Positions 2,002-43,177 of a DNA stretch of 64,000 nt are shown here, one piece after another. The stretch is from assembly GCA_030430495.1 (NCBI GenBank), contig JAUIKM010000004.1, positions 62,001 to 126,000 of the forward strand, in the 5' to 3' direction. Every line of letters starts with the position of its first letter. Position 1 is the first letter of the stretch. The position numbers and the translations under genes are program-made. The notes beneath the pieces were generated by a model that saw only the letters and a list, made by a program, of their open reading frames with translations, was not told where the DNA came from and did no database searches. Source of the stretch: a bacterium (GTDB lineage Bacteria > Bacteroidota > Ignavibacteria > Kapaibacteriales > UBA7675).

Positions 2002-2175
2002 GACGGAAATTGAATGTTCATCGACATCCGGAGCCATTAGAGGCAGATGCGGGAGGGCGGCCCCTTTGAGCCTTCTCTCCGGATGACAAACAAAAAAATC
2101 ACGCCGTGCGGTTTTGTTAAGTCGGCGGCACAGGTTTCCCGGATTGTTAAACGCAATCAACAACTCCGTCAGTTA

Positions 2176-3258
2176 ATGAATAAAATCGATCGATATATCC
2201 TGCGGCACTTTCTCTCGACGCTCATTTTCAGCATCGGAGCGCTCAGCATAGTGTTTGTGGTCGTCAGTCTGTTTGAAAAAATGGACGATTTTATCGACCA
2301 CGATACGCCCGGCAATATCATTATCAAATACTACATCAACTATCTGCCGGACATTATCAAGGTACTCTTCCCCGTCGGCATGCTGCTCTCGGCCTTGTTT
2401 ACGACCGGGCGGCTTTCGAACAGCAATGAGATCACGGCCATGAAAGCGGCGGGCATGAGCCTCTACCGCTATATCACGCCGCTGATGGTCCTGGCGATGA
2501 TGTTAAGTGTCGGGCAGTTGTATTTTAACGGTTGGGTCGTGCCCAATGCCAACCGCGTCAAGACCGACATAGAACGCGAATACCTGAAAAAGGGCGATGA
2601 CGTCACGAGCTTCAGCCGACTGGATTTCCGCGACGCGCCGCTGCGCAATGTGCGCATGGGTTATTACAACGACGTCTCGCGCCGCGGCAGTTCGATGAAT
2701 ATCGAGGAGTTTTCCAGCGAGGAAAGTCCGCGTATTGTGAGCAGTTTTACGGCGCCGCGATTTACCTGGAGCGACTCTTTAAACAGCTGGTTGATGTACG
2801 AGGTGACGGAACGGCGGTTCAGCGCAGACGACCACGAATTGCTGTTCCACGATTCGCTGGAAGCGCCGGTTAACATTACGCCGCACGAAATCATCAACAT
2901 GCAGCGCAAGAGCACGGAGCTGACATTCAAGGAACTTAAACACCACATCATTCTGGCGTCGCGCGGCGGCGAGGATGTGCGCCGCGAGTGGATCGACTAC
3001 TACGGTCAGCACGCCCTGCCTTTTGCCAATTTTATCGTGGTGCTGTTCGGCATTCCCTTTTCCGGCGGCAAACGCAAAGGCGGCCTGGCGCTGGAAATTG
3101 CGGCGGCGATGTTCATCGCTTTTCTCTATCTCGTCTTCACGAAGGTCGGTCAGACGGTCGGTTACGCGGCCAACCTGGACCCGGTGCTGAGCGGCTGGCT
3201 GGCCAACGCCGTCTTTCTGGTCGCCGGAATTATTAATATCTTCCGCCTGCGATCCTGA
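2176..3258 (+). CDS. LptF/LptG-family LPS export permease (YjgP/YjgQ)
   Basis: This is a permease of the LptB2FG transporter, which extracts LPS from the inner membrane and feeds the LptC-A-D bridge. The 360-residue protein matches family length. It opens with the typical 'MNKIDRYILRHFLSTLIF' segment, a long TM1 (about 10-32), TM2-3 around 55-110 with the family signature 'SNSNEITAMKAAGMS' (83-97), a periplasmic beta-jellyroll-like region (about 125-270) and three C-terminal TM helices. The ATG at 2176 is preferred because an upstream in-frame start (2047) would add a polar leader before the conserved N-terminus. It resembles LptG slightly more than LptF, but only one of the two is present here. 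Confidence 0.85.
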   Translation: MNKIDRYILRHFLSTLIFSIGALSIVFVVVSLFEKMDDFIDHDTPGNIIIKYYINYLPDIIKVLFPVGMLLSALFTTGRLSNSNEITAMKAAGMSLYRYITPLMVLAMMLSVGQLYFNGWVVPNANRVKTDIEREYLKKGDDVTSFSRLDFRDAPLRNVRMGYYNDVSRRGSSMNIEEFSSEESPRIVSSFTAPRFTWSDSLNSWLMYEVTERRFSADDHELLFHDSLEAPVNITPHEIINMQRKSTELTFKELKHHIILASRGGEDVRREWIDYYGQHALPFANFIVVLFGIPFSGGKRKGGLALEIAAAMFIAFLYLVFTKVGQTVGYAANLDPVLSGWLANAVFLVAGIINIFRLRS

Positions 3259-3298: not shown

Positions 3299-4099
3299 AT
3301 GGAACAGATTCAGACTTTATCGACCATTCGCGGGCGCGAGATTTTGCGCTCCATCTACCGCGACATGCGTTTTGAGCGCCAATTGAGCAGCACGGCGGTG
3401 CTGACGGCCTGCCTGCGCATCTGCATCGGCGAGCGCGATCTGATGCGATACGGCCGCGACGACATCACGATCGTACATCCGCTCGGCCTGTTTGCCGGCG
3501 TCAGCCTGTGGCTGCAGGAGATAGTCAACCGTTTTTACTTTTCCACCATATCCTCTCTTGTTTACCTCGGAGCGGCAATCCTCCTGTTAATCGTCGGGGC
3601 TTTCCGTTTCACGTCCTTTATCGGCAGCGAATTTGTGGTGGCGGGCATAGCGCTGGAGGCGGGGCTGCTGATGCTTCTGTTTGTCATTATGTTCTTCTCG
3701 CCGTCGGACGACTACCTGGATCCCGACGCCGGCGGCGCGGAAGACTCGGAGTCCGAACTGAACCAGATTGTGCGGGAAATAGGCGAGATTTCCAGCGACT
3801 ACGCGGCGTTTTCGAATCAGGTGGACGACGTCACGGCCACGCTGAGCAGCCTGGCGGCGCGCCAGGATCAACTGATCGAGGTGATGCGCGAGAGCACGCG
3901 CCAGAATGCGCTGATGGTGGCGCCGCAGCCGCAGCTGCTGGAAACGATGCAGAAAACAAATCAGGCGCTGCACGAATTCACGGAAACCGTCCAGAATCTC
4001 GTCGGCGCGGCCCAGGCTCTGCGCCGCGAAGAGGTTGAACGCTCGGTGCGCCAGGAAGTTGAACGCCTGCTGGCCGGACGCCTGAACGACAAACAATGA
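3299..4099 (+). CDS. GldL-like T9SS motor subunit (divergent)
   Basis: This 266-residue protein has an 80-residue charged N-terminal region, two adjacent TM helices (about 83-103 and 112-134), then a long cytoplasmic coiled coil (about 145-265). The TM pair resembles GldL: a basic residue closing TM1 (Arg103 in 'VGAFRFTSFIG') and a membrane-buried Glu in TM2 (Glu120 in 'AGIALEAGLLML'), comparable to the GALFK…TEAG pattern of flavobacterial GldL. GldL with GldM forms the proton-driven rotary motor that powers type IX secretion and gliding. The next gene overlaps by four bases (ATGA) and looks like GldM, which strengthens the call. The N-terminal extension is not typical of GldL. Without a profile search this stays a structural-pattern assignment. 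Confidence 0.58.
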   Translation: MEQIQTLSTIRGREILRSIYRDMRFERQLSSTAVLTACLRICIGERDLMRYGRDDITIVHPLGLFAGVSLWLQEIVNRFYFSTISSLVYLGAAILLLIVGAFRFTSFIGSEFVVAGIALEAGLLMLLFVIMFFSPSDDYLDPDAGGAEDSESELNQIVREIGEISSDYAAFSNQVDDVTATLSSLAARQDQLIEVMRESTRQNALMVAPQPQLLETMQKTNQALHEFTETVQNLVGAAQALRREEVERSVRQEVERLLAGRLNDKQ

Positions 4100-5631
4100 A
4101 AAAGCCGCCCAATCAAGCACTGCGCCGCCGCCGCGGCGTCGAAATCTACTTCGTCCTTTACCTGACGGCTTTGCTGCTCTTGATGCTGGACAAACGCGGC
4201 ACGGACACCAAGCCGGACGAGGAACTGGTCATCGGGCTGCTGCAAACCAACTTTTCGATTCAGGCTGAAAAAAACCTGCTGAACTGCACCGCCCTGCGCA
4301 CCGAAGACGGCCTGCAAATTATCTCGCTCGACTCGGTCAACACCATCTTCAGCAAGGGCAATGTCACCGACGTGCAGTACGATTTTACCATCATCGACGT
4401 GGCGCGCAACCGCAACTACGTGATCAATGAAAATCAGCAACCGGACGGCCAGGTCGGCTACGGCTACCGGCGCCTGGATGAAGGCGAGCGCGCGGTGTTC
4501 AACTGGAAGCCGGACCTCAGCAGCGGCGACCGCGCGGTCTACACGATCCGCGTCGAGGCCAGCGCCAAACCGCTCGTGCCGGCGCGTATCACCTCTCCGG
4601 AACAGCGCCGACAACTCGAAAAAATTATCGAGGAAGGCGATCAGCGCGTCGACGCCGACACGCGTTTTCAGCTGGCGGTGACCTTTGTGGGCGACGCAAA
4701 CATCGCAGCCAATCTTGAGAATGACAACCCGGTGGACACGGTCACGCGGGTTATTTACCAGCAGGGCGATCAGCCGGTTACGGTCATCAACGCGCCGGCG
4801 GGCAACATTACCTTCAGCCCGGCCAACGCGGCTGTTTACGCGGTGGCGAATGCACGCTGGCACAACCGCATCGTCGTCGGCGGCATCGACCTGAAAAACG
4901 ACCTGGCGGAATCGCCGGAAATCAGCGTTGACGGCGAAGGCGAGGCGGCAATAGCTTCCATCGACGATGGCGCAATCCGCGTGGACGGCACGGCGCCGAC
5001 CAAAGGCCAGATGCGTGTGACGCTACGGCTGCGTCGTCGCAGCGACGACCAGACGGCAGGCGTATCATTCGACGTGCGCACGCGCCCCCTCCCCGCCGCA
5101 CTGACGCCCGCGCGCATGTATCCCGGCCTGAGCTACAACTTTGACCCGCGTTTTCCGGCGCTTGTCGGACAGGACGTCAAAGCGGTCCTGCGCGACGCCG
5201 CCGGGCGCGAGCGCCACGTAAGCGTCCAGGGCGAGGCATTTTCGTTTACGCCGCAGCGCAGCGACATAGGTGCGGATTTTGAGTTGATCCGCAGCGTCAA
5301 CGGCAAGACGATCGCTACGAGTTCACTGATTCCCGTGCGCGACTTCCCGTTGCCGGAAATCGCCGAGGTAAACAAGCAGTCCGGCAAGGCGATCGTGCGC
5401 ACGCGCGCTTATGGCGGACCGCAGAGCAGCAATCGCATTTCGATTAAAATCGACGGCAACGCCCAGGTGGTCAGCGAGCGCCACGGCGAGTGGGAGTACC
5501 TGCCGGAGGGCAACATGCACATCCAGGTGTTTGAAGTTGAGCCGCGCGACAGAAACAAGGCCTTTGAGTTCAGCGTGAAGGCAGTGGACAGGAATGGGCG
5601 TGAGAGTGAGAAGCGGGATGTTGGGGGGTGA
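4096..5631 (+). CDS. GldM-like T9SS motor subunit (divergent)
   Basis: This 511-residue protein has a short Arg-rich cytoplasmic N-terminus, one TM helix (about 15-31, 'VEIYFVLYLTALLLLML') and a long periplasmic part built of beta-rich, Ig-like segments. That is the architecture and length of GldM (about 515 residues), whose single helix sits inside the GldL ring while its D1-D4 domains span the periplasm. Its start overlaps the GldL-like gene by four bases, so the two are probably translationally coupled in a fixed ratio. A late repeat-like region around 310-450 ('PRFPALVGQDVKAVLRD') would be D3/D4. Primary sequence similarity to textbook GldM is weak by eye, so another anchored Ig-like protein cannot be excluded. 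gldK and gldN are not in the window. Confidence 0.52.
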   Translation: MKKPPNQALRRRRGVEIYFVLYLTALLLLMLDKRGTDTKPDEELVIGLLQTNFSIQAEKNLLNCTALRTEDGLQIISLDSVNTIFSKGNVTDVQYDFTIIDVARNRNYVINENQQPDGQVGYGYRRLDEGERAVFNWKPDLSSGDRAVYTIRVEASAKPLVPARITSPEQRRQLEKIIEEGDQRVDADTRFQLAVTFVGDANIAANLENDNPVDTVTRVIYQQGDQPVTVINAPAGNITFSPANAAVYAVANARWHNRIVVGGIDLKNDLAESPEISVDGEGEAAIASIDDGAIRVDGTAPTKGQMRVTLRLRRRSDDQTAGVSFDVRTRPLPAALTPARMYPGLSYNFDPRFPALVGQDVKAVLRDAAGRERHVSVQGEAFSFTPQRSDIGADFELIRSVNGKTIATSSLIPVRDFPLPEIAEVNKQSGKAIVRTRAYGGPQSSNRISIKIDGNAQVVSERHGEWEYLPEGNMHIQVFEVEPRDRNKAFEFSVKAVDRNGRESEKRDVGG

Positions 5632-5741: not shown

Positions 5742-6923
5742 ATGGCCGAGTTTAAGGAATCAAAGACGTCAGCAGGATCGAAGCGTCGCGACGCCAACAA
5801 GGGTGCTGCGCAAAAAACGCGATCGCGTAAAAAAACCTATGCATTGATCGACTTGTTCTGCGGCGCGGGCGGCATGACACTTGGCTTTTCCAACGCTTTC
5901 AAACAGCCCTTCAAATCTGTGTGGGCGAATGATTTTTCCCCCGCCTGCGCCCTCACCTACAATGCCAACTTTGGGAATCACTGTCTGGCGGGCGACATTG
6001 TCGACATTCTGGAAGACAGTTCTGTTAAGATCCCTCAAGCGGATGTCGTAATCGGCGGACCGCCTTGCCAGGGCTTCAGCCTGCTCAACAAAAACAGAAC
6101 AAACGATCCACGCAAACAGTTGTGGCGTCCTTATCTGGAGATTGTCAAACGCTCAAATGCCTCCGTATTTGTGATGGAGAATGTTCCCCAATTGTTAAAC
6201 AGTGTGGAACACGGCCAGATTGCGGAACTGGCTGAGTCCATGGGGTTCAGCATGAGGTGGGGAAAACTGCTCGCGGCTGATTACGGCGTACCTCAAACGC
6301 GACAACGAGCATTCATCATTGGATTTAAGGGCGATATCAGTTCGCTGGTGTTTCCGCCGCTGAAAACACATTTCAACCCGCGGACGGATCAAACTCTTCC
6401 GGAGACCACACATGTTAAAAAGCCCAGTCCGTGGCGAACGGTCAGAGACGCCATTGGAGATCTCCCACAGCCGGAGGGCACCGAGCTTCGCGATGAACCT
6501 GGACCATTAAACATCCACTTCGGACGCAATCCCACAGAAAAAAGCATTAAACGCTACAAGGCCATACCTGAAGAAGGCATGAATCGTTTCGACTTGCTGG
6601 AACGCGCTCCCGACATAACTCCCGATTGCTGGAAACGGAAAAAATCGGGAGGAACCGACCTGTTTGGACGCATGTGGTGGGATCGGCCTTCATTTACCAT
6701 CCGAACGGAATTTTTCAAGCCGGAGAAAGGTCGCTACCTACACCCCGAGCAACACCGGCCAATAACTCATCGAGAAGCTGCGCGCCTGCAAAGTTTTCCG
6801 GATGACTTTGAATTCAAAGGGTCTAAAACCGAGATTGCACGCCAGATCGGCAATGCCGTCCCCCCCTTGCTCGCGGCCAGATTGGCTGAAACGGTAGTTG
6901 CCCTTCTTAAACAGAATTCCTGA
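5742..6923 (+). CDS. DNA (cytosine-5-)-methyltransferase
   Basis: A type II modification enzyme that methylates cytosine C5 from S-adenosylmethionine. The 393-residue protein has a basic N-terminal tail (1-32), motif I 'LIDLFCGAGGMTLGF', motif IV with the catalytic Cys109 ('GGPPCQGFS'), motif VI 'ENVP', motif VIII 'QTRQRAF', a variable target-recognition region (about 210-320) and motifs IX-X ('REAARLQSFPDDF', 'QIGNAVPP'). It begins a three-gene block with Vsr and an HNH nuclease, so it is the M subunit of a restriction-modification system. Codon use in this block is less GC-rich than its surroundings (many AAA, TTT and ATT codons), which fits horizontal acquisition. Confidence 0.95.
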   Translation: MAEFKESKTSAGSKRRDANKGAAQKTRSRKKTYALIDLFCGAGGMTLGFSNAFKQPFKSVWANDFSPACALTYNANFGNHCLAGDIVDILEDSSVKIPQADVVIGGPPCQGFSLLNKNRTNDPRKQLWRPYLEIVKRSNASVFVMENVPQLLNSVEHGQIAELAESMGFSMRWGKLLAADYGVPQTRQRAFIIGFKGDISSLVFPPLKTHFNPRTDQTLPETTHVKKPSPWRTVRDAIGDLPQPEGTELRDEPGPLNIHFGRNPTEKSIKRYKAIPEEGMNRFDLLERAPDITPDCWKRKKSGGTDLFGRMWWDRPSFTIRTEFFKPEKGRYLHPEQHRPITHREAARLQSFPDDFEFKGSKTEIARQIGNAVPPLLAARLAETVVALLKQNS

Positions 6924-6939
6924 ACTACCTGAGATTCAC

Positions 6940-7350
6940 ATGGACGTTTTCAACAAAGCCAAACGTCGCCAGATCATGTCGAACGTCAGGAATCGGAACA
7001 CGACACCGGAAAAGCAAGTGCGGTCCTGCCTGCACAAAATGGGATACAGATTCCGCCTGCACCGCAAGGACCTCCCCGGCACTCCGGACATCGTCCTGCC
7101 GAAGTACAGAACCGCGGTTTTTGTGCATGGATGTTTTTGGCACGGGCACCCCGGATGCAAACGCGCCAAAAGACCCTCGACACAAATCGAATTCTGGAAC
7201 CGGAAACTTAACAAAAACATTGAACGCGACCTGAAAGCCCGTCGCAACCTGAAATTATTGGGCTGGAAGGTATTTATCGTTTGGGAGTGTGAAACGAGAA
7301 ACGCCGATTTCCTGCGCACAAAACTCAGTAGTATGTTGCCGCTTGTTTGA
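6940..7350 (+). CDS. vsr: Very short patch repair endonuclease Vsr
   Basis: Vsr nicks DNA next to T:G mismatches left when 5-methylcytosine deaminates, so C-to-T mutations at methylated sites are repaired. The 136-residue protein carries the family landmarks: 'MSNVRNRNTTPEK' near the N-terminus (substrate clamp), 'GTPDIVLPKYRTAVFVHGCFWHGH' with the catalytic Asp and the His/Cys zinc ligands, and the C-terminal 'GWKVFIVWECE'. ATG 6940 starts the conserved N-terminus; a frame-consistent earlier start would lie inside the methyltransferase gene. Placement directly behind a C5 methyltransferase is the classic dcm-vsr arrangement and shows that the upstream enzyme makes 5mC. Confidence 0.95.
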   Translation: MDVFNKAKRRQIMSNVRNRNTTPEKQVRSCLHKMGYRFRLHRKDLPGTPDIVLPKYRTAVFVHGCFWHGHPGCKRAKRPSTQIEFWNRKLNKNIERDLKARRNLKLLGWKVFIVWECETRNADFLRTKLSSMLPLV

Positions 7351-7384
7351 ACGACCTTCCACAACCAGATCATACAACACACAT

Positions 7385-8323
7385 ATGTTGAATCAAGATC
7401 AGTATTCCGAACCTCTGCGCGAACTACAAAATCTGCAGCGCTTTTTGCAGGACTATCAATACAAATTGCAGAACGAAGACCTGAGAAGTAAAGTCCTGAG
7501 TTTGCTTCCGGCTATTGGCATGCTGCGGAAACTGGGACAATCTCTGGTTCCGGAGCACGATTCCATGAGTGCAAGAGATCGGATTCTAAAGTATTTCAGA
7601 CTCTATCCCATGACAGTAATTTCAGGGGACGAGATTTTCCTCGTTTCCGGCATTCAGGAATACGCCCGTAGAATTCGTGAATTGCGGCGAGATTTTGGAT
7701 GGCACATTATGAGCGGCGTAACAACGCTGGAGTACGGCTCCGTTGAATATGGGTCGGCTATTGAGAACATTGTCGGCACAATGTCTCCTTCGGACTACAT
7801 TCTCACCACCGACATACAAAACAAAGAAAGCGCCTACTTAAACAACGTAGCTCTGGATCTCAGGAAACGCCAATCGGGCGGCAAGCAGAAAATTCTCGAC
7901 TTCCTCTTGAGTAATGTCGGCAAGGCGGTATCAGGCGAAACCCTTCGTTACATTGCCAATGACAGCAAAGAATGGGCGCGCCGCGTGCGCGAACTGCGGA
8001 CCGAAGACGGCTGGGACATCAGAACAAAACACAACGGAAGCCCCGATCTTCCGGTGGGCATGTATGTTTTAGTCTCCGATGTCCAATCTGATGTTGTTAA
8101 ACGCGATGTCCCCAAAGTATTGCGAAACAAGGTAGTCAGACGCGACAATCAAACCTGCACTACCTGCGGCTGGAACAAAAGAAACAGCGCCAGGGGCGAC
8201 TTCAGATTTCTGGAGGTTCACCACGAAGTCCCGCTCCACCAGGGCGGATCAAATGACATCGACAATCTGACGACTTTGTGCAACCGCTGCCACGACCGCA
8301 TACACAAGCACGACTATACCTGA
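7385..8323 (+). CDS. HNH endonuclease with duplicated N-terminal module, probable restriction enzyme
   Basis: This 312-residue protein ends in a zinc-bound HNH nuclease domain (about 248-310): Cys258/Cys261 and Cys299/Cys302 are the metal knuckles, His279-His280 ('LEVHHEVPLHQGG') the catalytic region and 'NLTTLCNRCHDRIH' the closing motif. Before it lie two copies of one winged-helix-like module: residues 65-110 (RILKYF…VSGIQEYARRIRELRRDFGW) and 168-212 (KILDFL…ANDSKEWARRVRELRTEDGW). These probably bind DNA. Directly downstream of the methyltransferase and vsr, it is the likely restriction partner. Start ATG 7385 follows the vsr stop by about 35 bases; an in-frame start inside vsr (7289) is less likely. 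The recognition sequence cannot be read from the protein. Confidence 0.85.
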   Translation: MLNQDQYSEPLRELQNLQRFLQDYQYKLQNEDLRSKVLSLLPAIGMLRKLGQSLVPEHDSMSARDRILKYFRLYPMTVISGDEIFLVSGIQEYARRIRELRRDFGWHIMSGVTTLEYGSVEYGSAIENIVGTMSPSDYILTTDIQNKESAYLNNVALDLRKRQSGGKQKILDFLLSNVGKAVSGETLRYIANDSKEWARRVRELRTEDGWDIRTKHNGSPDLPVGMYVLVSDVQSDVVKRDVPKVLRNKVVRRDNQTCTTCGWNKRNSARGDFRFLEVHHEVPLHQGGSNDIDNLTTLCNRCHDRIHKHDYT

Positions 8324-8330: not shown

Positions 8331-9161
8331 TCAATCAATCAAACCCTGCATCGCTTCCATCATATCCGGCTCGATGAAATCGCGCATCTGCATCGTCGCC
8401 AGGTTTAACTCCTTCATCACGATCGGCTCCGCGTCGGCGTCCAGCTCGCCGTTGTGGTTCTTGTCCACGCGCAGACGCAGCACGACCGTCTCCGTGTTTT
8501 CCAGATATTTAAACGAATGCACTCCCATATGCTCAAAATCGAAGTTGTACAGCCTGTGTTCCACGATACTGTACACCGAAAAACCCGCCAGGTCCGCGCG
8601 GTTTAACTTTCCGTCCTTGTTGGAATCGTTGCGCGAGGCCTCGATTAACAAAAAGTTTCCCGTCGGACTGTCAACATATGCAACTTCATCGATGGCTGTG
8701 CGCTGATTAAACAACTGGTACTTTTGTCCACCGCGTTGTTCGTAGAGCACCAGATTGTTGTACCCGCCGGATGAATAACCTTGCGACCTGCCGGAGTACT
8801 CGCCGCTATCGTACACGTCCGCGTATTCCTGTAATCCGACGTTCTCCGGCCGCTCCAGATTCGTAAGCGCAACGGGTATCATGTACAGCGCCCTGGCCGA
8901 ATCCAGCAGCTTTGGCCCCGACAGGGAAATGGCCTGATCGCGCACAATCTGCTTTTTCAATCCGTCGGAAATAGTGTCAGATTCTATCGTTATACCCGTC
9001 GCCGCGCGGTCACCCCGGCTCAGCGAATGCGATATCCAACTGACTAACATATACAGACCGCAGATCGCCAGCACCGCAAATCCCACCAACAGCAGCGTCC
9101 CGTTGATCGCGCGCAGGCGCTCGTTGTAGTTTGCAAGTTTGTTCACTTTGTGCTCCTTCAT
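8331..9161 (-). CDS. Membrane-anchored protein with two EF-hand/dockerin-like calcium loops
   Basis: Unrecognised family, 276 residues. A short polar N-terminus is followed by one TM helix (about 20-42, 'LLLVGFAVLAICGLYMLV'), so the rest is probably outside the cytoplasm. The C-terminal half carries two loops with dockerin/EF-hand spacing: 'DSNKDGKLNRADL' and 'DKNHNGELDADAEP', each with Asp/Asn at positions 1, 3 and 5 and a Gly at 6. A purine-rich SD-like stretch (GGGGAG) lies about 9 bases upstream of the ATG. It converges with the HNH gene (7 bases between stops) and shares no operon with it. Calcium binding is inferred from the loops only. Confidence 0.7.
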   Translation of the reverse strand: MKEHKVNKLANYNERLRAINGTLLLVGFAVLAICGLYMLVSWISHSLSRGDRAATGITIESDTISDGLKKQIVRDQAISLSGPKLLDSARALYMIPVALTNLERPENVGLQEYADVYDSGEYSGRSQGYSSGGYNNLVLYEQRGGQKYQLFNQRTAIDEVAYVDSPTGNFLLIEASRNDSNKDGKLNRADLAGFSVYSIVEHRLYNFDFEHMGVHSFKYLENTETVVLRLRVDKNHNGELDADAEPIVMKELNLATMQMRDFIEPDMMEAMQGLID

Positions 9162-9164
9162 GTG

Positions 9165-9308
9165 TTAATCTCCCCGGGCCCCAATTTCCCGTGCATACAG
9201 ATGCCGCACGAACTCGGGAAAATACTGTTGACCATAGTACTGATCAAAGTGAAACTTTATTGAATGACTCTCCACCTTGCAACAAAGCTGCTGGTCGGCC
9301 CTGCACAT
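9165..9308 (-). CDS. Possible small Cys-containing protein (47 aa)
   Basis: A short minus-strand reading frame ends three bases before the start of the calcium-loop protein. It reads like protein sequence (a Cys-rich start 'MCRADQQLCC' and an aromatic-rich end 'FDQYYGQQYFPEFVRHLY'). The same frame continues upstream to a Met at 9458, but that part overlaps the plus-strand paralogue fragment. No family recognised. It could simply be spurious, although the tight spacing to the next gene favours translation. Confidence 0.25.
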   Translation of the reverse strand: MCRADQQLCCKVESHSIKFHFDQYYGQQYFPEFVRHLYAREIGARGD

Positions 9309-9344
9309 CAGGCAGGCTTGTCCAAACAAACCGGATTTTTCTGA

Positions 9345-9608
9345 ATGTTGAAACTCCCCGACACAACACTGTGCCTCTTGCTGCTTCTTGTTGCCGTTAA
9401 AACCCATGTTACCGCGCGCGATGAATTGGACGACATTTACTACCCCGACACACGACAAGCGCTGTACAACGCCGCAACGATGGCAAAGTTGCGCGCCAGG
9501 TTCGACGAGTTTAATCCAAGCTTCAATCCCGATTCAGCAGGCGCAGGCTACGCTGCCGCCCCTGACCGCTTTGAGCCCTTGCCTGCGCTGCGGTCTCAGG
9601 CTCCCTGA
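9345..9608 (+). pseudogene. Truncated N-terminal fragment of the secreted paralogue family found downstream
   Basis: The first about 70 residues contain a signal peptide (LCLLLLLVAV) and a segment resembling the N-terminus of the complete paralogue at 11448 ('YNAATMAKLRARFDEFNP' against 'YDESTMARLEYIVDSLNL'). From base 9564 the frame runs into a dispersed repeat and stops. The rest of the gene is missing: the next paralogue starts afresh at 9746 with its own signal peptide. I read this as a third family member whose body was lost when or after the repeat arrived. It might still be expressed as a short secreted peptide. Confidence 0.5.
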
Positions 9609-9630
9609 TTGTCTTGCTCGTCGCGCAGTT
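9564..9630 (+). repeat. Dispersed repeat copy 1 (67 bp)
   Basis: Core begins GACCGCTTTGAGCCCTTGCC and continues to GGTCTCAGGCTCC, then a conserved tail GATT..CTTGCTCGTC.CGCAGTT. Almost the same 67 bases recur at 12958. The ends GACCGC and GCGGTC are complementary, so a transcript could fold. This copy truncates a paralogue fragment. Confidence 0.85.
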
Positions 9631-9745
9631 TTCAGTCTCAAACCCAACAGTCTGTCGCCGGCCTGAAACCAAAAAGCCCGAAGTCTTGTCACAAACACAT
9701 GAGCACAAAGTCGCAGAGTCAGTTAACAAGTCGGGAGATTCAAAC

Positions 9746-11248
9746 ATGCGTTCAGCCATCCTGTTTACTGTTGCCTTGCTGGCGATGTATTGTCCGCTCC
9801 CGGCCTGGTTCGGCCTGGGCGATGCGCCGCGGCACATTTATTCCGCGGACATCCTCGAAGCGCTGCGCCCGCTCGCCACAGACCATCGTGCGAGTTATGA
9901 TCCCGCAGCAGTCCGGCCCGGGTATTTCTCCAAACCGCAGGCCGTCGGCAACTACGTCCTGTTTGAAGGCGACCGCGCCGACACGGCGCTGAAACTCATC
10001 GAGCAGGGCGCTGGTTTCCTCGACCTGCTGCGCCAAATCGAGCCAAAAGAAACCACAAAACACTTGTTGCTGACATTTGACACCTACCGGGATGTGCGCT
10101 GCAATATTAAACAAGAAGTCTTCGGCTGGAATGGTGTGTGCGGCCTGCGCCACTCGGTCGACATCGACGTCGGTCTTGATATTGTTAATACCTGCCGCCG
10201 CGGTGACTGGCTGTTCGAATACATCGACGCGCCCGCGTATAAATACAAAGGTTTGCAGGCTTTTTTTCTGGTGACGGACTTCCAACAAACTCAAATCCCC
10301 TCCGACTACGCGCGCAGTATCGACTATCTGGACCACATGACCAACCCGGCCGAGGCGGCCCTGTACGAGGACGCCAAATGCTGCAGGCACGACACCTGTT
10401 ACACAGACATCGGCATTTTCCAGAACTTCATGCAGTGGCTCGTGCCGATTGCTTGCGGCGACAGCCTGCCGAACGAACATGTGTACTCCGACGTGCTCAA
10501 CAGACCCGATGACAGTTGTTTTGCCCGAATCGATCGCCAGATGGCCAACACCAAATTGTTTCACAGAATGCTGGACCTGTCCATTGAGGCCGCTATTGAA
10601 AATCAGTGTTATTTTGAATTGCTCGAACAGCTCGTGGCCCGCTACAGATCAAAAGACCTGGCCCTGAAACTTAAACGCAGTCACTTTCCGGTTGCCTGTT
10701 GCGGCATGAGCTCCAGACCCTACCTGCATCGCCGGGACATTGCCGTTCTGGCCGCGCAAACCGCTGAATGGAATGTCTTCCTGCGCACGCATATCGATGT
10801 GGTGTTTGACGACTACCGCAAAAATCCGGATGGCACATTCACATTTCTTGGCGATCGCACAATGGTTCCGGTCCTGCAGGATTTTGGCCTCGACGTCGAA
10901 TCTCTGTTGCTCGGCAGTGTGTTAAGAGTCGACAACCGGCACAGAAACGCGTACAAGACCTTCGCGTACAGCATCGGCAATGTGATTGCCCGCATGCCCG
11001 AACGCGATGAAATACTTAACGACATTCGCAGCATGATCGGCAACCGGCAGCTTGATGACTTCAACCGCCTGCGCTTGTTTGATGTCTACTGGACGTGTTT
11101 GATTGAATCCAATTCCAGCGAGATTCCGGAATCGATGGTTGCAACGCTCCGGTCCGTCGTCGACCTGCTTCCGCCTTACCTGGCACAGACTATTGACCTG
11201 GAGGAGGAACTGCCTACACACCGCATAGCCGGACAACAAAAAAAGTAA
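9746..11248 (+). CDS. Secreted protein of an unrecognised paralogous family, copy A
   Basis: 500 residues with a signal peptide (MRSAILFTVALLAMYCPLPAW). The family is not recognised. It is clearly paralogous to the gene at 11448: shared blocks include 'FDTYRDV' / 'YDTYRGE', 'GLQAFFLVTDF' / 'SLRAFFVVSDF', 'IPSDYARSIDYLD' / 'VPRDYAAMIQYVD', 'ALKLKRSHFP' / 'ALELKRSRKV', and 'RRDIAVLAAQTAEWNVFLRTH' shortened in both to (R/Q)IA-LxAxTAxWxVFLRxH. Helix-rich C-terminal half with alpha-solenoid-like periodicity. ATG 9746 is chosen because it starts the signal peptide; an earlier in-frame start at 9614 lies in the repeat. Several Cys pairs suggest disulfides outside the cytoplasm. Confidence 0.75.
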   Translation: MRSAILFTVALLAMYCPLPAWFGLGDAPRHIYSADILEALRPLATDHRASYDPAAVRPGYFSKPQAVGNYVLFEGDRADTALKLIEQGAGFLDLLRQIEPKETTKHLLLTFDTYRDVRCNIKQEVFGWNGVCGLRHSVDIDVGLDIVNTCRRGDWLFEYIDAPAYKYKGLQAFFLVTDFQQTQIPSDYARSIDYLDHMTNPAEAALYEDAKCCRHDTCYTDIGIFQNFMQWLVPIACGDSLPNEHVYSDVLNRPDDSCFARIDRQMANTKLFHRMLDLSIEAAIENQCYFELLEQLVARYRSKDLALKLKRSHFPVACCGMSSRPYLHRRDIAVLAAQTAEWNVFLRTHIDVVFDDYRKNPDGTFTFLGDRTMVPVLQDFGLDVESLLLGSVLRVDNRHRNAYKTFAYSIGNVIARMPERDEILNDIRSMIGNRQLDDFNRLRLFDVYWTCLIESNSSEIPESMVATLRSVVDLLPPYLAQTIDLEEELPTHRIAGQQKK

Positions 11249-11447
11249 ATCAACACAGCTCAGGCATACAAGCAATCTCGTCATGTGGATGAAACTTTCG
11301 ATGTCCATTCTTCAACCTTCGCGTTTGACAGATGTGACTGAATTGGCAGGAATGGACTTACTCGCGGTAGCGGACGCTCTACGCGGCATCCGGCCTGCAG
11401 AATCCGTTCGGCGCATCTCGCGCACATTGCACATCAGGAGACACACA

Positions 11448-12908
11448 ATGAAACGTCTGACTTTATTTACGGCATGCTGCCTGCTTCTTATAGCTTCGCA
11501 CGCTGCCGCTCAGGAGTTTGAAGAGTTTGAGAACGGCCTGATGTACGACGAGTCCACCATGGCGCGCCTGGAATACATCGTCGACTCACTCAATCTCATG
11601 TTTAAACAGTGCGATCCAAACTCGTCGTATCGCTCCCTGCCCCAGGCTGAATGCCACTACATCAGGATTGAAGGCAGAGACGCGCGTCGCGCCCGCTCAG
11701 ATATTGAGAACGGGATTCAGTTTGAAGAACTGCTTGACAAATATCACAACACTTCGGTGCAGTTAAATCTGCCGATTGTTGTAAATCACTACGATACCTA
11801 CCGCGGGGAAAGTTCGCGCAAATTCAGCTCGATGCCTTTTGAGTCGCCATATTTTCATGAAATTGTTGAAGAGGGCCGACGCTACAGCTTTGACTTCAAC
11901 AGCAGCAACAGATGGATCTTTGATTACCATGCTCCCAATCAATACATTACTGAAAGCCTGCGGGCCTTTTTTGTTGTCTCCGACTTCACAATCTCACCTG
12001 TCCCGCGCGACTACGCCGCCATGATCCAGTACGTCGACTGCATGGTGGACACGAACACGACGACATATCTGGAAGACCCGGCCAATGGCTACAGCGTCGA
12101 AGCCGAAGTTGAAATTGAACGACTGCGCGAATTCACCGACCGCCTGTTAACCAGGACCGCGACCACACGCAATTCGCGGGACGCGCTTTCAACCTGGGAT
12201 ATGGGGCCCAAACGGATGGAACGAATCCGCGCGATAGTGACTTCCGAGCCGGACTTTAAACAAGAAATCATCGACGTGGTGGAGACAGCTCTTAAACACG
12301 GCCGCAGCAGCGAGCTGTTGGAGCTGCTGGCGGAAGAATTTCACTCGGCTGAAGCGGCACTCGAACTTAAACGCAGTCGCAAAGTCTGGGGACAGTGCAG
12401 CATGGACGAGAGCCCGCGCATTCATGCGCGGCAAATTGCCCTGCTTTCAGCAGAGACCGCCAGATGGGACGTCTTTCTGCGCGCTCATCTCAACATCATG
12501 AATGACCGCTTTGCGCGTATGTCGGACGGCTCTTATGCCTGGGGACGACGTGAGACCTACATCCGCGAACTTGAGGAGTTAAACATCAATGTGCCGCAGC
12601 TGATTCTCGGAATGGTGTTGCGCATTGACAACCCCGGCAACAACCACTACTTCGGCGATATTCAGCGACTTGGTCGTGCGCTCGCCGAAACTAAATATCG
12701 CGAAGAATTTGAAACTCACATGAGCAGAATGATCTGCGATCCTGAACTGGACACGTTTAATCGTATGTTGATTTTCTACCTGTACAAAACCTACGCCGAC
12801 CACCTGAATGACGAGGACATCCAAAAGGCCGCCAGGCAACGCCTGAAAACCACGATGGCCGGCTTGCCCGCCACCCTGTTAAAAGGAATCAATGACGATT
12901 TTGACTAA
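11448..12908 (+). CDS. Secreted protein of an unrecognised paralogous family, copy B
   Basis: 486 residues; signal peptide 'MKRLTLFTACCLLLIASHAA' with cleavage likely near AAA-Q. A good SD (AGGAG) sits 7 bases before ATG 11448, which decides the start against an in-frame ATG at 11283. Paralogue of the upstream gene over its full length, with about 30-40% identity in the shared blocks by eye. The gap between the two genes is 199 bases and both run in the same direction, so a common transcript is possible. No catalytic motif is evident. The C-terminal half is all-helical. Function unknown; probably periplasmic or surface. Confidence 0.78.
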   Translation: MKRLTLFTACCLLLIASHAAAQEFEEFENGLMYDESTMARLEYIVDSLNLMFKQCDPNSSYRSLPQAECHYIRIEGRDARRARSDIENGIQFEELLDKYHNTSVQLNLPIVVNHYDTYRGESSRKFSSMPFESPYFHEIVEEGRRYSFDFNSSNRWIFDYHAPNQYITESLRAFFVVSDFTISPVPRDYAAMIQYVDCMVDTNTTTYLEDPANGYSVEAEVEIERLREFTDRLLTRTATTRNSRDALSTWDMGPKRMERIRAIVTSEPDFKQEIIDVVETALKHGRSSELLELLAEEFHSAEAALELKRSRKVWGQCSMDESPRIHARQIALLSAETARWDVFLRAHLNIMNDRFARMSDGSYAWGRRETYIRELEELNINVPQLILGMVLRIDNPGNNHYFGDIQRLGRALAETKYREEFETHMSRMICDPELDTFNRMLIFYLYKTYADHLNDEDIQKAARQRLKTTMAGLPATLLKGINDDFD

Positions 12909-12957
12909 AACTCCCCGAATTCACCCGGACCGCCCCGGATCGCCCCGGATCGCCCCA

Positions 12958-13024
12958 GACCGCTTTGAGCCCTTGCCTGCGCGGCGGTCTCAGGCTCCTT
13001 GATTTTCCTGCTCGTCCCGCAGTT
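12958..13024 (+). repeat. Dispersed repeat copy 2 (67 bp)
   Basis: Nearly identical to copy 1 (same core, same CTTGATT…CTGCTCGTCCCGCAGTT tail). It is preceded by a short tandem run of CGCCCCGGAT units (12931-12957). It lies about 50 bases after the stop of copy B of the secreted family, the same kind of position copy 1 has relative to the fragment. Confidence 0.85.
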
Positions 13025-13152
13025 AAAAGTCACAGAACGACGAAATCATTGAGGCGCAAGTCGTTGGCCGGAAACCCTCGCGTGACTATCTTGCCGGAAG
13101 TTTCGCCGCACAAGCGCGCGGAGCCCCGGCCATTTAAACACAGAGTCTCAAG

Positions 13153-14562
13153 TTGAAAGCCGCAGTCTTCAGTCACGAACATCCGATCGGCTCAGTTGAG
13201 CTGCACGTCGACGAGTCCGCAAACAACACGCTCGCCGGCGAGATGCAATGCGCGCCGCACTACGATCAAATCGCCCACATTCTGCACGATATCAACTCCG
13301 GCCTGCCGCGCGGCAACAACATGTCCATGGAAGAACTGCGCATCAACGTGCGGCTCGCAAACGGCTGCTTCCTCTTCCCCGCCCAAGGTTTCTCCATCCG
13401 CGAATTGCCAAACGACGGAACACAACACGCAGAACGCACAGCCGAACTGCGCGCCGTCGGCGTCATGCCGCATGTCATCGAGAACTTTTTTGTTCGCAGG
13501 CCGGCGCGTGAATGGCCCTTGCAGCACTGGCAAGCGCCGGACATCGCGCTCAAGCTGAAAATGGAAGACGAACTGCTGTACGAGATCGGGCAGGACGTCA
13601 ACGAACATTCCAACGGCGATTCGACGCCGAACAATCACCCGCTCTCGGATTGGAGTCTCTGCGCTCAACTGCACTTTAACCACTGGAAAGACTGTGTGTT
13701 TACAGCGCGCCACCGCCAAAGCGGACGTGAAGCTTTTGTCCTGGTTCAGGTCCCCTGGAGCAACCGGCGCGAACGAGGTTCGTGGCCGATGTTTCAGTTT
13801 TTCAACTCCTGGAATAGTTTCAGACGCCGCTGCCTGCGCTACGGCGAAGACATTGAGCAGTACTTAAACACGCCGGCGCAGCAAGAACTCTACCGCCGAT
13901 TTCACAAAGAAATGGCGGCGATCGACGCCGTCGTTTATTCCGGTACGACCTGCATCGGCACGGCGCGCCTGTGCGATTACGACCGCAGCATGGGCGTCAT
14001 CGGCGGGATATTTTTTCCCAATGCGGCTTATGCGTCCGTACAAAAGTTAATCTGGAAATTCTACGAATTTAACGACAGCAATGGCCTGAAATATCTGCAT
14101 GCGGCACATCTGAACGTGCAGATAAACAACAACATATTCTTGAGTCCTGCCGGCGGAATTGAAATTTGCGACATAAAAGAACTTCAGGACAGCCCTGAAG
14201 CCCCCGAGGTGATAGTGGCCGGCCTTCACTGGCAGATCATTGAGAATTTTCTGGATCGCGCTGTACCGCTACCGTGGCTCAAACCGCCGTGGCGACCGAT
14301 TTCCATCGAAGAAAAACTCGACTTTGAACAGAAACTGGATCAACTGCTGCTCAGCATGCAGTCCGGAGGCGATCACAATCAGGACAAGCCCTTGCCGGTG
14401 CGGAACTGGCGCTTCGACTACGGCACGCTGGCCGTCAACAGCTTAAACAAAAAAGTCTTGTTTGATTTGCAGCGATCAAATCACGGGCAGTTTGTGATTG
14501 TCGATTTTAACAATCCGTCCGAAGCCTTCGAATACTTTGAGAATCGGGACGAACTCCCGTAG
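13153..14562 (+). CDS. Hypothetical protein (about 469 aa)
   Basis: No family recognised. The frame is open from a TTG at 13153; no strong SD is visible, so the real start may be an ATG further in (for example near 13240). The protein is rich in Trp and aromatic residues, has no signal peptide and no TM helix, and so is probably cytoplasmic. Noticeable blocks: 'WPLQHWQAPDIALKLKMED', 'AFVLVQVPWSNRRERGSW', 'YLHAAHLNVQINNNIFLS' and 'RNWRFDYGTLAVNSLNKK'. The middle (about 255-350) has the alternating pattern of an alpha/beta sensor domain. It is followed by a convergent DinB-like gene. Codon usage matches its neighbours, so it is a real gene. Confidence 0.6.
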   Translation: MKAAVFSHEHPIGSVELHVDESANNTLAGEMQCAPHYDQIAHILHDINSGLPRGNNMSMEELRINVRLANGCFLFPAQGFSIRELPNDGTQHAERTAELRAVGVMPHVIENFFVRRPAREWPLQHWQAPDIALKLKMEDELLYEIGQDVNEHSNGDSTPNNHPLSDWSLCAQLHFNHWKDCVFTARHRQSGREAFVLVQVPWSNRRERGSWPMFQFFNSWNSFRRRCLRYGEDIEQYLNTPAQQELYRRFHKEMAAIDAVVYSGTTCIGTARLCDYDRSMGVIGGIFFPNAAYASVQKLIWKFYEFNDSNGLKYLHAAHLNVQINNNIFLSPAGGIEICDIKELQDSPEAPEVIVAGLHWQIIENFLDRAVPLPWLKPPWRPISIEEKLDFEQKLDQLLLSMQSGGDHNQDKPLPVRNWRFDYGTLAVNSLNKKVLFDLQRSNHGQFVIVDFNNPSEAFEYFENRDELP

Positions 14563-14624
14563 AATCAACTACAAGTAAATAATCCCGTCCTGTCAAGTCC
14601 GAATTCATCGACCGATTCAGACAT

Positions 14625-15113
14625 TTAACTTTTCGTCGCCGCGGCGAGCAAACCCAACTGCCCGACGTGATACTGCTGGTGCATGATCCAGTTTAACAAC
14701 ACGCCCTCTTTGGTCTTGAAATAGTCTTCCTCAATCGGGCCTTTTAACATGGCGTGCGGCTGGTCGAGCTCCGCGTCGGTTAACTCCCGGTAGATCGCGG
14801 CATTTTTGTCGCACACCGCCTGCCACTGCTGTTTAAGCAGCGCCAGGTCCGGATAGGCCTCCAGTGACTCCGCCGGAGCGCTCTGGCGAAACTGCTTCTG
14901 GTAGTCCGGGAAAAGTATTGGGCCGCGACCGAGATAGAGCGAGAAGTCGTCGTCGCTTGCAATCAGGTGCCCGAGAATCCAGACGCCGTGGTTGCCGCCG
15001 GGACGGACGCGCTGCCGCAGTTGTTCGTCGTCCAGCCGGCCGAGGTAGTGGTTAACCCAGAACAGCATTGTGTTGTACATAGTCTGATAGGCTTCTACCT
15101 TGTTTCGGCTCAT
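14625..15113 (-). CDS. DinB/YfiT-like metalloprotein
   Basis: 162-residue four-helix-bundle protein of the DinB-like superfamily. Metal-binding histidines are visible at the expected places: 'WILGHLIASDD' (helix 2) and 'WIMHQQYHVGQLG' (helix 4). Members are often thiol-dependent S-transferases; with bshA in this window, a bacillithiol-dependent transferase is possible, but this is inference. It overlaps the upstream acetyltransferase frame by four bases (ATGA type), so the pair was built as one operon. Confidence 0.8.
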   Translation of the reverse strand: MSRNKVEAYQTMYNTMLFWVNHYLGRLDDEQLRQRVRPGGNHGVWILGHLIASDDDFSLYLGRGPILFPDYQKQFRQSAPAESLEAYPDLALLKQQWQAVCDKNAAIYRELTDAELDQPHAMLKGPIEEDYFKTKEGVLLNWIMHQQYHVGQLGLLAAATKS

Positions 15114-15607
15114 GATTGCACCTCAGTCTGTTTAACATCTATTTGCATCAGCGGCAGAACACGCCCCGGAATGCTGCCGGATGGACGCTCGCCGATGCGG
15201 CGCGCGCCCGCTTTCCGGTAAAATGACTCGGCGTAGGGATCGCTCACAATCTGAATTGTCACGCCGCCGAGCGCGCGCACCTGCTCAACTGCATGTTGCA
15301 TCAGGGTCCGCCCGACGCCGACGCCGATAGAGCGCGGCTCCACAAACAGCGCGTCAAGTTCAAAGTTCTTGTTTCCCAGCGGTTCAAGTGCGTAGAATCC
15401 GAGAATCATGCCGTCCAGTTCGGCGGCATAAAACGTCATTGCTCCGTCAATCTGCTACGGCGTGTGCGAGAGCTCGGCGCGGCAGGCCTCGACAAATTCC
15501 GGCGAATAGCCCCAATGCGCCTTGGAACGCATCGCCAGTTCGCTGATGATCGCCGCTTCGGATGCATCGACCGGACGGATGATTATTTTCCTCAGAACTT
15601 TGCGCAT
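15110..15607 (-). pseudogene. GNAT N-acetyltransferase interrupted by one in-frame TAG
   Basis: Reading from ATG at 15607 gives a GNAT N-terminus ('IIIRPVDASEAAIISELAMR', then 'HWGYSPEFVEACRAEL'), then TAG at 15457-15455, then in the same frame the rest of the domain: 'GAMTFYAAELDGMILGFYAL', the acetyl-CoA P-loop region 'PRSIGVGVGRTLMQHAV' and 'FYRKAGARRIGER'. The typical family text at this point is TPEQI; here it is TP-stop-QI, so a single codon (probably CAG or GAG) became TAG. A shorter product could start at ATG 15439, but it would lack beta1-alpha2. Sequencing error, a recent null mutation or readthrough are alternatives. Confidence 0.75.
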
Positions 15608-15797
15608 GACTTAAACGCCTGCGAATGTGTTAAACATCGAGCACAACAACTGCCGGACGGACTGCCGACACAAAAAGCGCCCGTTTCAAACAAAAATACT
15701 GAGAACCGGACGACTGAGCGCTTCACACCCGAAGATTAACAAAAAAGTCAGGAAGGCGCGGCCCGCAATGCAATGTAGGGATCGCAAGCCGCTCAGG

Positions 15798-15826
15798 CAA
15801 AACTTGTTGCTTAGGCAACAAGTTTG
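15798..15826 (-). terminator. Hairpin terminator of mltG
   Basis: An 11-bp perfect stem (AAACTTGTTGC / GCAACAAGTTT) with a 4-base loop lies about 40 bases past the mltG stop. On the minus strand the stem is followed by TTTTGCC, a short U tract. Confidence 0.6.
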
Positions 15827-15866
15827 CACTTAACAAAACGGACCTGTTAAACCGGCGGGAATGCGT

Positions 15867-16895
15867 TTAACGTCCGCGATTGCGTCGGTAGCGCCGCACG
15901 GCCCTGTCGTGTTCGAGTTTGGTGCGCGAAAAGTCGTGTTTACCGCTGCCGTCGCCCAGCGCCACAAAATAGTAATAGGAATGTTTTTCGGGGTTGAGAG
16001 CCGCATCGAGTGCGGCGCGCCCGGGAGAGTTAATCGGCCCCGGCGGGAGTCCGGCGTATTTGTAGGTGTTGTAGGGGCTGTCGTACTCCAGATCGTCGTA
16101 GAGCAGGCGGCGGCGCACGTCGCCAAGCGCAAACTGCACGGTCGGATCGGCCTGCAGCAGCATGCCCGCTTTCAGGCGATTGTGATAAACGCCGCTCACG
16201 CGCGGTTTTTCGGCATCGGTGGGCGTCTCCGCCTCAATAATCGACGCCAGCGTGGTAACCTGCCGCAGCGACATGTTAAGTTTTTTGGCCTGCGCAATGC
16301 GTTCCGCGGTCCAGAATTCGGCGTGGTGCCCGACGAGTTTATCCAGCACGTTGCGCGCCGAAGCGGACTGATAAAAATTATAGGTATCCGGCATGAGAAA
16401 CCCTTCGAGGTCCGCGGCAGAAGCAAGACCAATCCCCTCTAAAACAGCCATCTTGTTTGCCATCGAATCGGAAGCGGCAAGTCCCACAAATTGTACCGAG
16501 TCGACGAGTCCGGCGCGCGCCAGAATCGACGCCGTGCGCGCAATCGTCAGTCCCTCGGGAATCGTCACGTTCACCGTCGCCGCCTGGCCGCTGCGTCGGA
16601 AGAGCGAACGCAGCGCCTCGAACTGCGTCATATCGCGCCGCACGACAAACCGCCCGCGGTTGAGCTGGTTGCCGCTGATGCGCGCGTAGAGGTTGAGAGT
16701 GATGTGCGCCGCCGCCGGCCATGTGAGCAGATCTTTGGAAGCAAAAACATCCACGGCGCCGCTGGGCGTGGCGCCCGCTGGAATTTCGATCTCAACGCGA
16801 TCCGTGCCCAACTGCAGGGGCTGCAACATCGGCCAGGCCAGGGCCGCGACGGCCACAACAGACAGGCAAAGCAGAATCCAGAAAAGTCTCTTCAT
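15867..16895 (-). CDS. mltG: Endolytic murein transglycosylase MltG (YceG-like)
   Basis: MltG cuts nascent peptidoglycan strands inside the chain and is thought to end glycan polymerisation. The 342-residue protein has a short cytoplasmic N-terminus and one TM helix (about 3-25), a LysM-like domain (about 60-115, 'RFVVRRDMTQFEALRSLFR', then 'TIPEGLTI'), and the catalytic domain with the family signatures 'ASIIEAET' (catalytic Glu), 'VSGVYHNRL', 'LQADPTVQFAL', 'YDSPYNTYKYAGLPPGPI' and 'FVALGDGSGKHDFSRT'. ATG at 16895 is used; a further 9 in-frame Arg/Pro-rich codons upstream are not conserved. A hairpin terminator follows. Confidence 0.93.
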   Translation of the reverse strand: MKRLFWILLCLSVVAVAALAWPMLQPLQLGTDRVEIEIPAGATPSGAVDVFASKDLLTWPAAAHITLNLYARISGNQLNRGRFVVRRDMTQFEALRSLFRRSGQAATVNVTIPEGLTIARTASILARAGLVDSVQFVGLAASDSMANKMAVLEGIGLASAADLEGFLMPDTYNFYQSASARNVLDKLVGHHAEFWTAERIAQAKKLNMSLRQVTTLASIIEAETPTDAEKPRVSGVYHNRLKAGMLLQADPTVQFALGDVRRRLLYDDLEYDSPYNTYKYAGLPPGPINSPGRAALDAALNPEKHSYYYFVALGDGSGKHDFSRTKLEHDRAVRRYRRNRGR

Positions 16896-42300: not shown

Positions 42301-43177
42301 GGCCCACAAAATTCTGCGCGACGAACATTTCAACCTGCCGCAGTCGAGCCTGCGCGGCGACGGCTGGCGGCTGGAATCGCGCGAATCCCTGGCCCTGCTC
42401 GACAAACTGCGGAGCAAGGGCAGGCCGCTGGGGGAACTGGTTCAGGGCAAAATGTACCGTGGAATTTTAACGGGTTTCAACGAGGCTTTTGTGATCGACG
42501 CGGCGACGCGGCAGGCCCTGATTGATGAAGATGCATCGGCGGCGGAGATCATCAAACCCTGGCTGCGCGGCCGCGATGTTAAACGCTGGCGCGTGGAGTA
42601 CTCCGGCCTCTACATTATCTTTACGCGTCGCGGCATAGACATCGACGCATATCCCTCCGTCAAACGCCATCTGGAACAATACAAACAGCGTCTGACGCCG
42701 GGCATCAAGGGCGGTCGCAAACCGGGCAGTTACAAATGGTATGAATTGCAGGATGCAATTGACTACTGGCAGGAGTTTGAGAAGCCGAAGATTATTTACC
42801 CGGACATCGCACACAAGTGCGAGTTTTCCATCAGCACTGATTCAGAATATTGTGATTGTACAATATTTCTGATACCCGATCACTCCTATTATCTTGCCGC
42901 TTTGTTAAATTCGAATCTGATTCAGTACTTGATCCCAAAAATAACGCCGACTATTCGAGGCGGATATATGAGGTTCAAAACAATTTACCTCTGTCAATTG
43001 CCTGTGGTTTCCTCTGATCCGGCGATGCAAATTCGAATTGAACTGCTGGCAAAAGAGATTGAGAAATCTCCGGGAGAATCCACGGAATTGGAAACCCAAC
43101 TTAACGCCGAGGTCTACAAACTCTACGACCTGACGCCGGCGGAAATCAAATTGATTGAATCCGAAATTTCAGCCTGA
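39365..43177 (+). CDS. Type IIG (Eco57I-like) restriction-modification fusion enzyme
   Basis: 1270 residues. Order: nuclease-like N-terminal domain (about 20-190) with a PD-(D/E)xK pattern, 'GRTDLVIHNG' followed by 'RVLIETKSPG' (Asp … Glu-x-Lys); a helical linker; adenine methyltransferase core with SAM motif 'ICDPAVGSGHFLVSVLNE' and catalytic 'LANPPYIRQEE' (NPPY); and a target-recognition domain (about 1040-1250, 'PTIRGGYMRFKTIYL') similar to TaqI-type specificity domains. One polypeptide both cuts and methylates. Together with the next gene it is the second restriction system of the window. ATG 39365 opens the conserved N-terminus. Recognition sequence not readable. Confidence 0.87.
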   Translation: MSLELNLLPPATALETAHRKLNLQRSEVQRFQGCLGAFVSGIDDAETEEHAKNRLRTFLNDAFYKERHDINTKGRTDLVIHNGPTSDTRARVLIETKSPGNSNEMISAANPNRKALHELLLYYLREVHDENNIVLARLIVSNAHEWFIFDAAEFDALCRDDKKVLSEFKTWNDGKSSRSRTDDFYRNIAAPFFERCEAELDAVYFKIDDYVRLDPDRRGDARTLAALYKILSPVYLLKQTVANDSNTLNSDFYRELLHILGLNEVEEKSGGKRRVIQRVEEGEERQTGAVIENTILQLRAKLPELGDERYAEFGDDKEEQCFNIALELALTWINRILFLKLLESQLLRFHGGDRKYHFVNTQTLGEYDDVQELFSQVLNCPRADRDEDLRARYDHIPYLNSSLFHVSKLESDTITIGSLNDKREIKLYGRTVLRDGKDKRRSGTMRTLAYLLEFLDAYDFATENEGEVLKRPKSLISATVLGLIFEKINGYREGAVYTPGFITMFMARESLRLCVLHRFNETYDWHCKDLEQLRDHMLRQDIDAADANKLVDDIKICDPAVGSGHFLVSVLNELIAVKSELRILCDEEGRPLPIQCTVINDELAVDWRDTQDNFVYGVNSKGGKRGVDNDVQRVQTALFNNKRRAIENSLFGVDINSNSANICRLRLWIELLKHAYYIPADNYGDLEVLPNIDINIKVGNSIISRFDLDEPLATMASASIKQIELYLTYVETYKSSRDWIAKHKLLEQIEGIKQAFSNFLSQNDPDLARYRKAAAQLYDLELAEDGLFNSDKKDAKKDEKREAKIAKLRLQVAELKEKVEEKRSGKLLHKSFEWRYEFPELLDATYTFKGFDLILANPPYIRQEEIREIKPLLKERYESYSGTADIFVYFFERAVDLLRTGGVMAFITANKYMRAGYGEKIREFLSEQVQIDRLIDFGDAQVFEEATAYPSILIAEKIPPDADHDILAHNWSATSDLKQAHKILRDEHFNLPQSSLRGDGWRLESRESLALLDKLRSKGRPLGELVQGKMYRGILTGFNEAFVIDAATRQALIDEDASAAEIIKPWLRGRDVKRWRVEYSGLYIIFTRRGIDIDAYPSVKRHLEQYKQRLTPGIKGGRKPGSYKWYELQDAIDYWQEFEKPKIIYPDIAHKCEFSISTDSEYCDCTIFLIPDHSYYLAALLNSNLIQYLIPKITPTIRGGYMRFKTIYLCQLPVVSSDPAMQIRIELLAKEIEKSPGESTELETQLNAEVYKLYDLTPAEIKLIESEISA

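Follow-up and report, generated by a model that had tools for sequence, protein, structure and literature searches.

A divergent GldLM-like gene pair as a candidate motor for the T9SS of Kapabacteria

Two overlapping genes of a Kapabacteria draft genome, here called L and M, encode proteins that are likely to form a divergent GldLM-type motor, one that would energize the T9SS without a recognizable PorKN ring. The T9SS as described consists of a PorLM motor, a PorKN ring and the Sov translocon. Kapabacteria keep this secretion system without recognized motor genes, and L-M is the best candidate to power it. The pair lies in a window of 64,000 nucleotides, the whole stretch of DNA that was analyzed, from a genome assembly of 5.6 Mb that is 95.6% complete. 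In the literature searched, with most subscription papers outside its scope, neither Kapabacteria nor Ignavibacteria are described as having a GldLM-like motor. The pair and its neighbors on the 5' side are arranged as follows:

1057-2001, + strand: ftsX-like gene, neighbor 5' of L-M (PF18075, E 3e-9)
2047-3258, + strand: lptG, neighbor 5' of L (TIGR04408, E 1e-60)
3299-4099, + strand: L, GldL-like inner-membrane protein, 266 aa (open reading frame, homologues, profile comparison)
4096-5631, + strand: M, GldM-like single-TM periplasmic shaft protein, 511 aa (open reading frame, homologues, profile comparison)
4096-4099, + strand: ATGA stop/start overlap of L and M, 4 nt

These open reading frames, together with the profile matches of the neighbors, bear out the overlapping pair beside ftsX and lptG that the original prediction had described. 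Homologues were found for L in all 61 sampled genomes of the order and for M in 60 of the 61, mostly adjacent to each other and with identities of 24-65%, and this conservation establishes both as real genes and excludes chance open reading frames. A second collection, made up of named genomes, has L in 79 loci and M directly 3' of it in 66. In some genera (loci L078, L080 and L082-L085), M is located away from L, and some further loci stop near the gene.

The AlphaFold2 model of L, built from a 52-sequence alignment with a mean pLDDT of 88, contains helices at residues 64-104 and 110-132, followed by coiled-coil helices at 151-207 and 211-265. Mapped onto the DNA, its parts are:

3299-3487, + strand: conserved N-terminal cytoplasmic extension, residues 1-63, not in GldL (homologues, AlphaFold2, profile comparison)
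3536-3610, + strand: TM helix 1, about residues 80-104 within helix 64-104, with the GAA motif at 91-93 and Arg103 (AlphaFold2, alignment)
3626-3694, + strand: TM helix 2, residues 110-132 (AlphaFold2)
3656-3658, + strand: codon of the invariant Glu120, which falls on GldL Glu49 (profile alignment)
3749-4093, + strand: cytoplasmic coiled-coil helices, residues 151-265 (AlphaFold2)

Model and alignment thereby recover the GldL layout first read from the sequence, namely two TM helices, Glu120, Arg103 and a coiled coil. Specifically, Glu120 is invariant in 52/52 L sequences, while position 103 is Arg in 45, Lys in 4 and Asn in 3. The N-terminal extension, originally put at 80 residues, is likewise real and conserved, with about 74 residues preceding the GldL-matching stretch; as the L homologues nearly all start at one shared Met, it is a feature of the family.

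In Bacteroidia, GldL-GldM, or PorL-PorM (TIGR03513, TIGR03517), is the motor of both the T9SS and gliding (PMC5790014, PMC8986121). L has no match to the GldL model TIGR03513 up to E 10 (curated cut-off 68.3 bits), and searches of Pfam and NCBIfam return only sub-threshold coiled-coil noise. Profile-profile comparison by hhalign, with reference profiles from alignments of 20 canonical GldL and GldM proteins of Bacteroidia genomes, nonetheless relates L to GldL at a probability of 93.9% (E 1.6e-7). The hairpin alone still reaches 90.9% with a score of 35.4, where none of 100 column-shuffled controls exceeds 18.5 and the reversed control gives 9.1, and whole L scores 57 against GldL and at most 20.1 against seven unrelated families (PorU, GldN, GldK, UvrC, LptG, a cargo protein and an outer-membrane protein). 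From the GAA motif to the Glu, the alignment of L and GldL is ungapped and places Glu120 on Glu49, which is present in 20/20 GldL proteins and is essential to T9SS secretion in Flavobacterium johnsoniae (PMC8986121). The GldL call thus stands on a profile match that exceeds its shuffle and unrelated-family controls and on the same catalytic Glu at the same spacing, and these sequence comparisons make L a well-supported homologue of GldL by descent. A HMMER search of PDB sequences with L also listed GldL (7sax, E 6e-4); this match covers the coiled coil only, stands among designed coiled coils and was discarded. Structure searches with VIA-align gave unspecific helical matches with Z under 8.

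M is modeled by AlphaFold2 (55 sequences, pLDDT 86) with a TM helix at residues 15-31, preceded by the basic stretch MKKPPNQALRRRRG, and an otherwise almost all-beta periplasmic part, in agreement with the GldM layout originally proposed for it. Its domain limits, a reading of the predicted secondary structure in which a linker at 204-233 is of low confidence, are:

4138-4188, + strand: TM helix, residues 15-31, after the basic N-terminus (AlphaFold2)
4219-4689, + strand: D1, residues 42-198, predicted Ig-like beta sandwich (AlphaFold2, structure comparison)
4810-5085, + strand: D2, residues 239-330, matches GldM D2 (AlphaFold2, profile comparison)
5134-5337, + strand: D3, residues 347-414, matches GldM D3 (AlphaFold2, profile comparison)
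5356-5628, + strand: D4, residues 421-511, without a profile match to GldM D4 (AlphaFold2, profile comparison)

The corresponding limits in GldM are 32-232 for the helical D1, 233-320 for D2, 321-405 for D3 and 406-513 for D4 (PMC5790014). Domain number, order and size agree between GldM and the predicted structure of M, whereas the fold of D1 differs. M matches no family in Pfam and NCBIfam up to E 10, TIGR03517 (cut-off 180 bits) included, and HMMER against PDB sequences gave nothing meaningful. In hhalign comparisons, whole M aligns with whole GldM at 64.5% (M 248-425 on GldM 238-413), and D2-D3 alone reach 80.2% against full GldM and land on 241-408; taken singly, D2 picks GldM D2 and D3 picks GldM D3. 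The same profile comparison gives no match beyond chance to GldM for D1, for the TM helix or for D4, the domain by which GldM contacts PorN. A YxVLxxALL resemblance between the TM helices of M and GldM did not rise above shuffles and was not counted as evidence.

M is therefore a probable partial homologue of GldM. The D2-D3 score of 46.7, against at most 24.8 in 60 shuffles, makes for a match that is good and not conclusive, because unrelated families reach up to 31.0 against M and GldM itself reaches 34.6 against an Ig-rich cargo family. This raises the question whether L is a true GldL relative while M is an unrelated anchored Ig-chain that has replaced GldM, with the D2-D3 likeness due to Ig-fold convergence, which we regard as unlikely. 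The height of the Ig-like controls and the domains that lack a GldM match would suit such a replacement, as would D1, a predicted beta sandwich with one helix of which residues 52-197 align to Ig V domains of antibodies (Z 10.5, rmsd 2.8, 111 residues). Against it, the D2-D3 match is collinear, proceeds domain for domain and lies above every control, and gene order, size and TM anchor are as in GldM. Foldseek and VIA-align lists for M, crowded by antibodies and other Ig chains over residues 52-330, are uninformative on GldM. A further family of the class has an M protein (L226:6863-8374) with a strong match to the M profile (E 3e-62) and, in a small search, a weak one to the GldM profile (E 2e-4), which is suggestive of a bridge. 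The GldM call is supported for D2-D3 by profile match; D1 has a different predicted fold, and D4 and the TM helix are without an independent match. Since the pair lies outside the curated definition of either family, the names GldL-like and GldM-like are advised; no profile of an unrelated family reached its cut-off for either protein.

With GldLM, L-M shares the gene order, L followed by M, the two TM helices, GAA motif and identically spaced TMH2 Glu, the cytoplasmic coiled coil that is predicted after TMH2, and, in M, the basic N-terminus, the single TM helix and four predicted periplasmic domains with a D2-D3 profile match. It differs in falling below all model thresholds, in the conserved extension of about 74 residues, in a D1 that is predicted to be Ig-like where that of GldM is helical, in its unmatched D4 and in its position outside a gldKLMN operon, in a genome without GldN and without GldK over cut-off.

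The gene content of the order defines the gap that such a pair could fill. Model searches found SprA/Sov and PorV in 21/21 genomes each, and a PorU-family sortase was found by model in the genome of the pair and by similarity in four others. GldL (TIGR03513) exceeds its cut-off in 0/21 genomes, as does GldM (TIGR03517; one stray match, E 0.003), and GldN (TIGR03523) is found in 0/21. GldK exceeds its cut-off in 0/17 Kapabacteria versus 3/3 Bacteroidia, and two 100%-complete Kapabacteria have no GldK match at all. All four models work on Bacteroidia proteins as positive controls, and the canonical gld genes are present in Bacteroidia. GldK-like matches in Kapabacteria were rejected; they are far under cut-off, and most of them fall in the shared sulfatase-modifying-enzyme domain. 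A search for gldK, gldN, sov and porU, as originally suggested, thus reveals a translocon that persists without a motor or ring that the models recognize. The further concern that a canonical gldKLMN cluster elsewhere might make the pair redundant can be set aside for gldL, gldM and gldN, none of which was found in the genome itself or in 20 relatives, and likewise for gldK over cut-off, as far as the models and a 95.6%-complete genome allow.

L-M might alternatively be a GldLM-related ion motor for another envelope process, such as LPS transport, division or outer-membrane maintenance, with the T9SS powered otherwise, which we consider distinctly unlikely. The genes 5' of L, an lptG homologue in 27 grouped loci and an ftsX-like homologue in 9, would be in line with such a role and mark a neighborhood that is not T9SS-specific; in the window the pair adjoins lptG and ftsX, as first described, and not T9SS genes, and there is no gldK/gldN operon. 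The occurrence of several L paralogues per genome and the lack of a recognized PorKN ring for L-M to push point the same way. However, the neighbor set varies across the order and has T9SS-linked members too (a PorU-family gene and CTD cargo), the homology is to the T9SS motor, and genomes with a full translocon yielded no further GldLM candidate. Finally, a TolQR/ExbBD/MotAB-type stator unrelated to GldLM is highly improbable, for although it would have the same general plan of a multi-TM ring protein and a single-TM periplasmic protein, neither PF01618 (MotA_ExbB) nor PF02472 (ExbD) matches L or M even at E 10, and in L, as in GldL, the conserved Glu sits in the second of two predicted TM helices.

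The T9SS-linked neighbors include, in about 13 loci, a large secreted-protein gene that is 5' of L-M and on the opposite strand; one member of this family was recognized with a T9SS sorting domain, and others have similar tails. A T9SS C-terminal domain had also been claimed within the window itself, which was not borne out: TIGR04183 does not match the 1983-aa protein at 47856-53807, whose end has only a weak FlgD_ig match that may be a divergent sorting domain. This protein, the complete one of two, and that at 59097-64000 (the latter by eye) are large FG-GAP/lactonase/Ig-repeat surface-type proteins in one part of the window. Positions 5742-8323, directly 3' of M, probably form a restriction-modification module made up of a cytosine-5 DNA methyltransferase and two genes named by eye, one resembling a Vsr mismatch endonuclease and one for an HNH-type endonuclease. 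A 1270-aa protein at 39365-43177 partially matches PglX adenine methyltransferases of BREX.

Some of the L paralogues have no M neighbor, and L-type hairpins are therefore not specific to L-M. A second L-type protein of 433-463 aa, with the same hairpin and Glu, is encoded directly 5' of a PorU-family gene in five genomes (loci L061, L065, L070, L231 and L233), and its homologue lies directly 3' of M in genome G008 (L068). In L061, for instance, the 433-aa paralogue (9065-10366) is followed by a 2009-aa PorU-family (PorU2) gene (10651-16680). A third paralogue, of 325-378 aa and with the conserved Glu, occurs at L062:9877-11013, L067:8671-9645 and L234:6948-7976; the gene 3' of it is of variable length, and its start resembles a P-loop ATPase (by eye).

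Related pairs occur beyond the order. In three families of the class (f12, f13 and f17), a shorter L, which hhalign relates to L at 99.1%, precedes an M-like gene that has the N-terminal motif of M, and such pairs are often part of operons of uncharacterized secreted proteins; SprA is present in these genomes, and TIGR03513 is not over cut-off. Outside the order, the strict M family occurs in f16 and, weakly, in f40. Short L-M pairs of the class (loci L215-L224 and L228-L229) are like L-M in their hairpin, in a YFVLYL-type start of the M TM helix and in the same Glu wherever the segment was extracted, but their L often has only 170-220 aa and their M often only about 200. In four loci (L223:100-6986, L218, L219 and L224), a short L and an M-like gene of about 200 aa come before three or four secreted proteins that are conserved but lack annotation, and the secreted protein of about 370 aa after such pairs might be the rest of a split M. 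Tandem double L-M pairs occur in f40 (L228:6901-11974 and L229:6903-12057). Another diverged GldLM pair occurs in the same phylum at L225:5263-7136, where a very divergent GldL scores 31.6 bits with TIGR03513 and a GldM of 380 aa scores 38 bits with TIGR03517, each far below the cut-off.

The hairpin homology to GldL would make L the proton-conducting ring and M its axle and shaft. L would most likely form a multimeric ring of hairpins, a pentamer by analogy, that encloses the TM helices of two M copies in the inner membrane. M would be turned against L by protons that pass Glu120 of L, and the chain of beta domains in M would relay this motion to the outer membrane, where it would energize the SprA/PorV/PorU translocon. 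As no GldK/GldN ring is recognized by the models, M would act on the translocon either directly or through an unrecognized partner or ring. We infer the 5:2 stoichiometry, proton use, rotation and T9SS coupling of the pair, the last from presence/absence patterns and gene neighborhood. MotAB, ExbBD, TolQR and AglRQS are 5:2 motors (review PMC9389320); L-M presumably resembles them in an ion-driven membrane ring around a dimeric axle, but it has no detectable sequence relation to them and carries its conserved acid on the ring subunit, whereas theirs is on the axle. The idea of a variant motor in the original prediction stands, while the sorting domain that it placed in the window was not confirmed.

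Furthermore, it can be proposed, as a tentative and somewhat doubtful generalization, that Kapabacteria and other lineages of the class run a T9SS without a PorKN ring, in which a separate GldLM-like motor has an Ig-type shaft that works directly upon the translocon, or else upon some unknown track, with extra GldL-type hairpin proteins, encoded beside the sortase gene, as helpers. Taken together, L-M would fill the motor gap of an order that has the translocon but no motor or ring recognized by models, and it would reveal what such a motor cannot do without, namely the hairpin Glu and D2-D3, and what can change, namely the helical neck, D4 and the ring. As such, the pair would offer a natural experiment on how force is transferred to the translocon.
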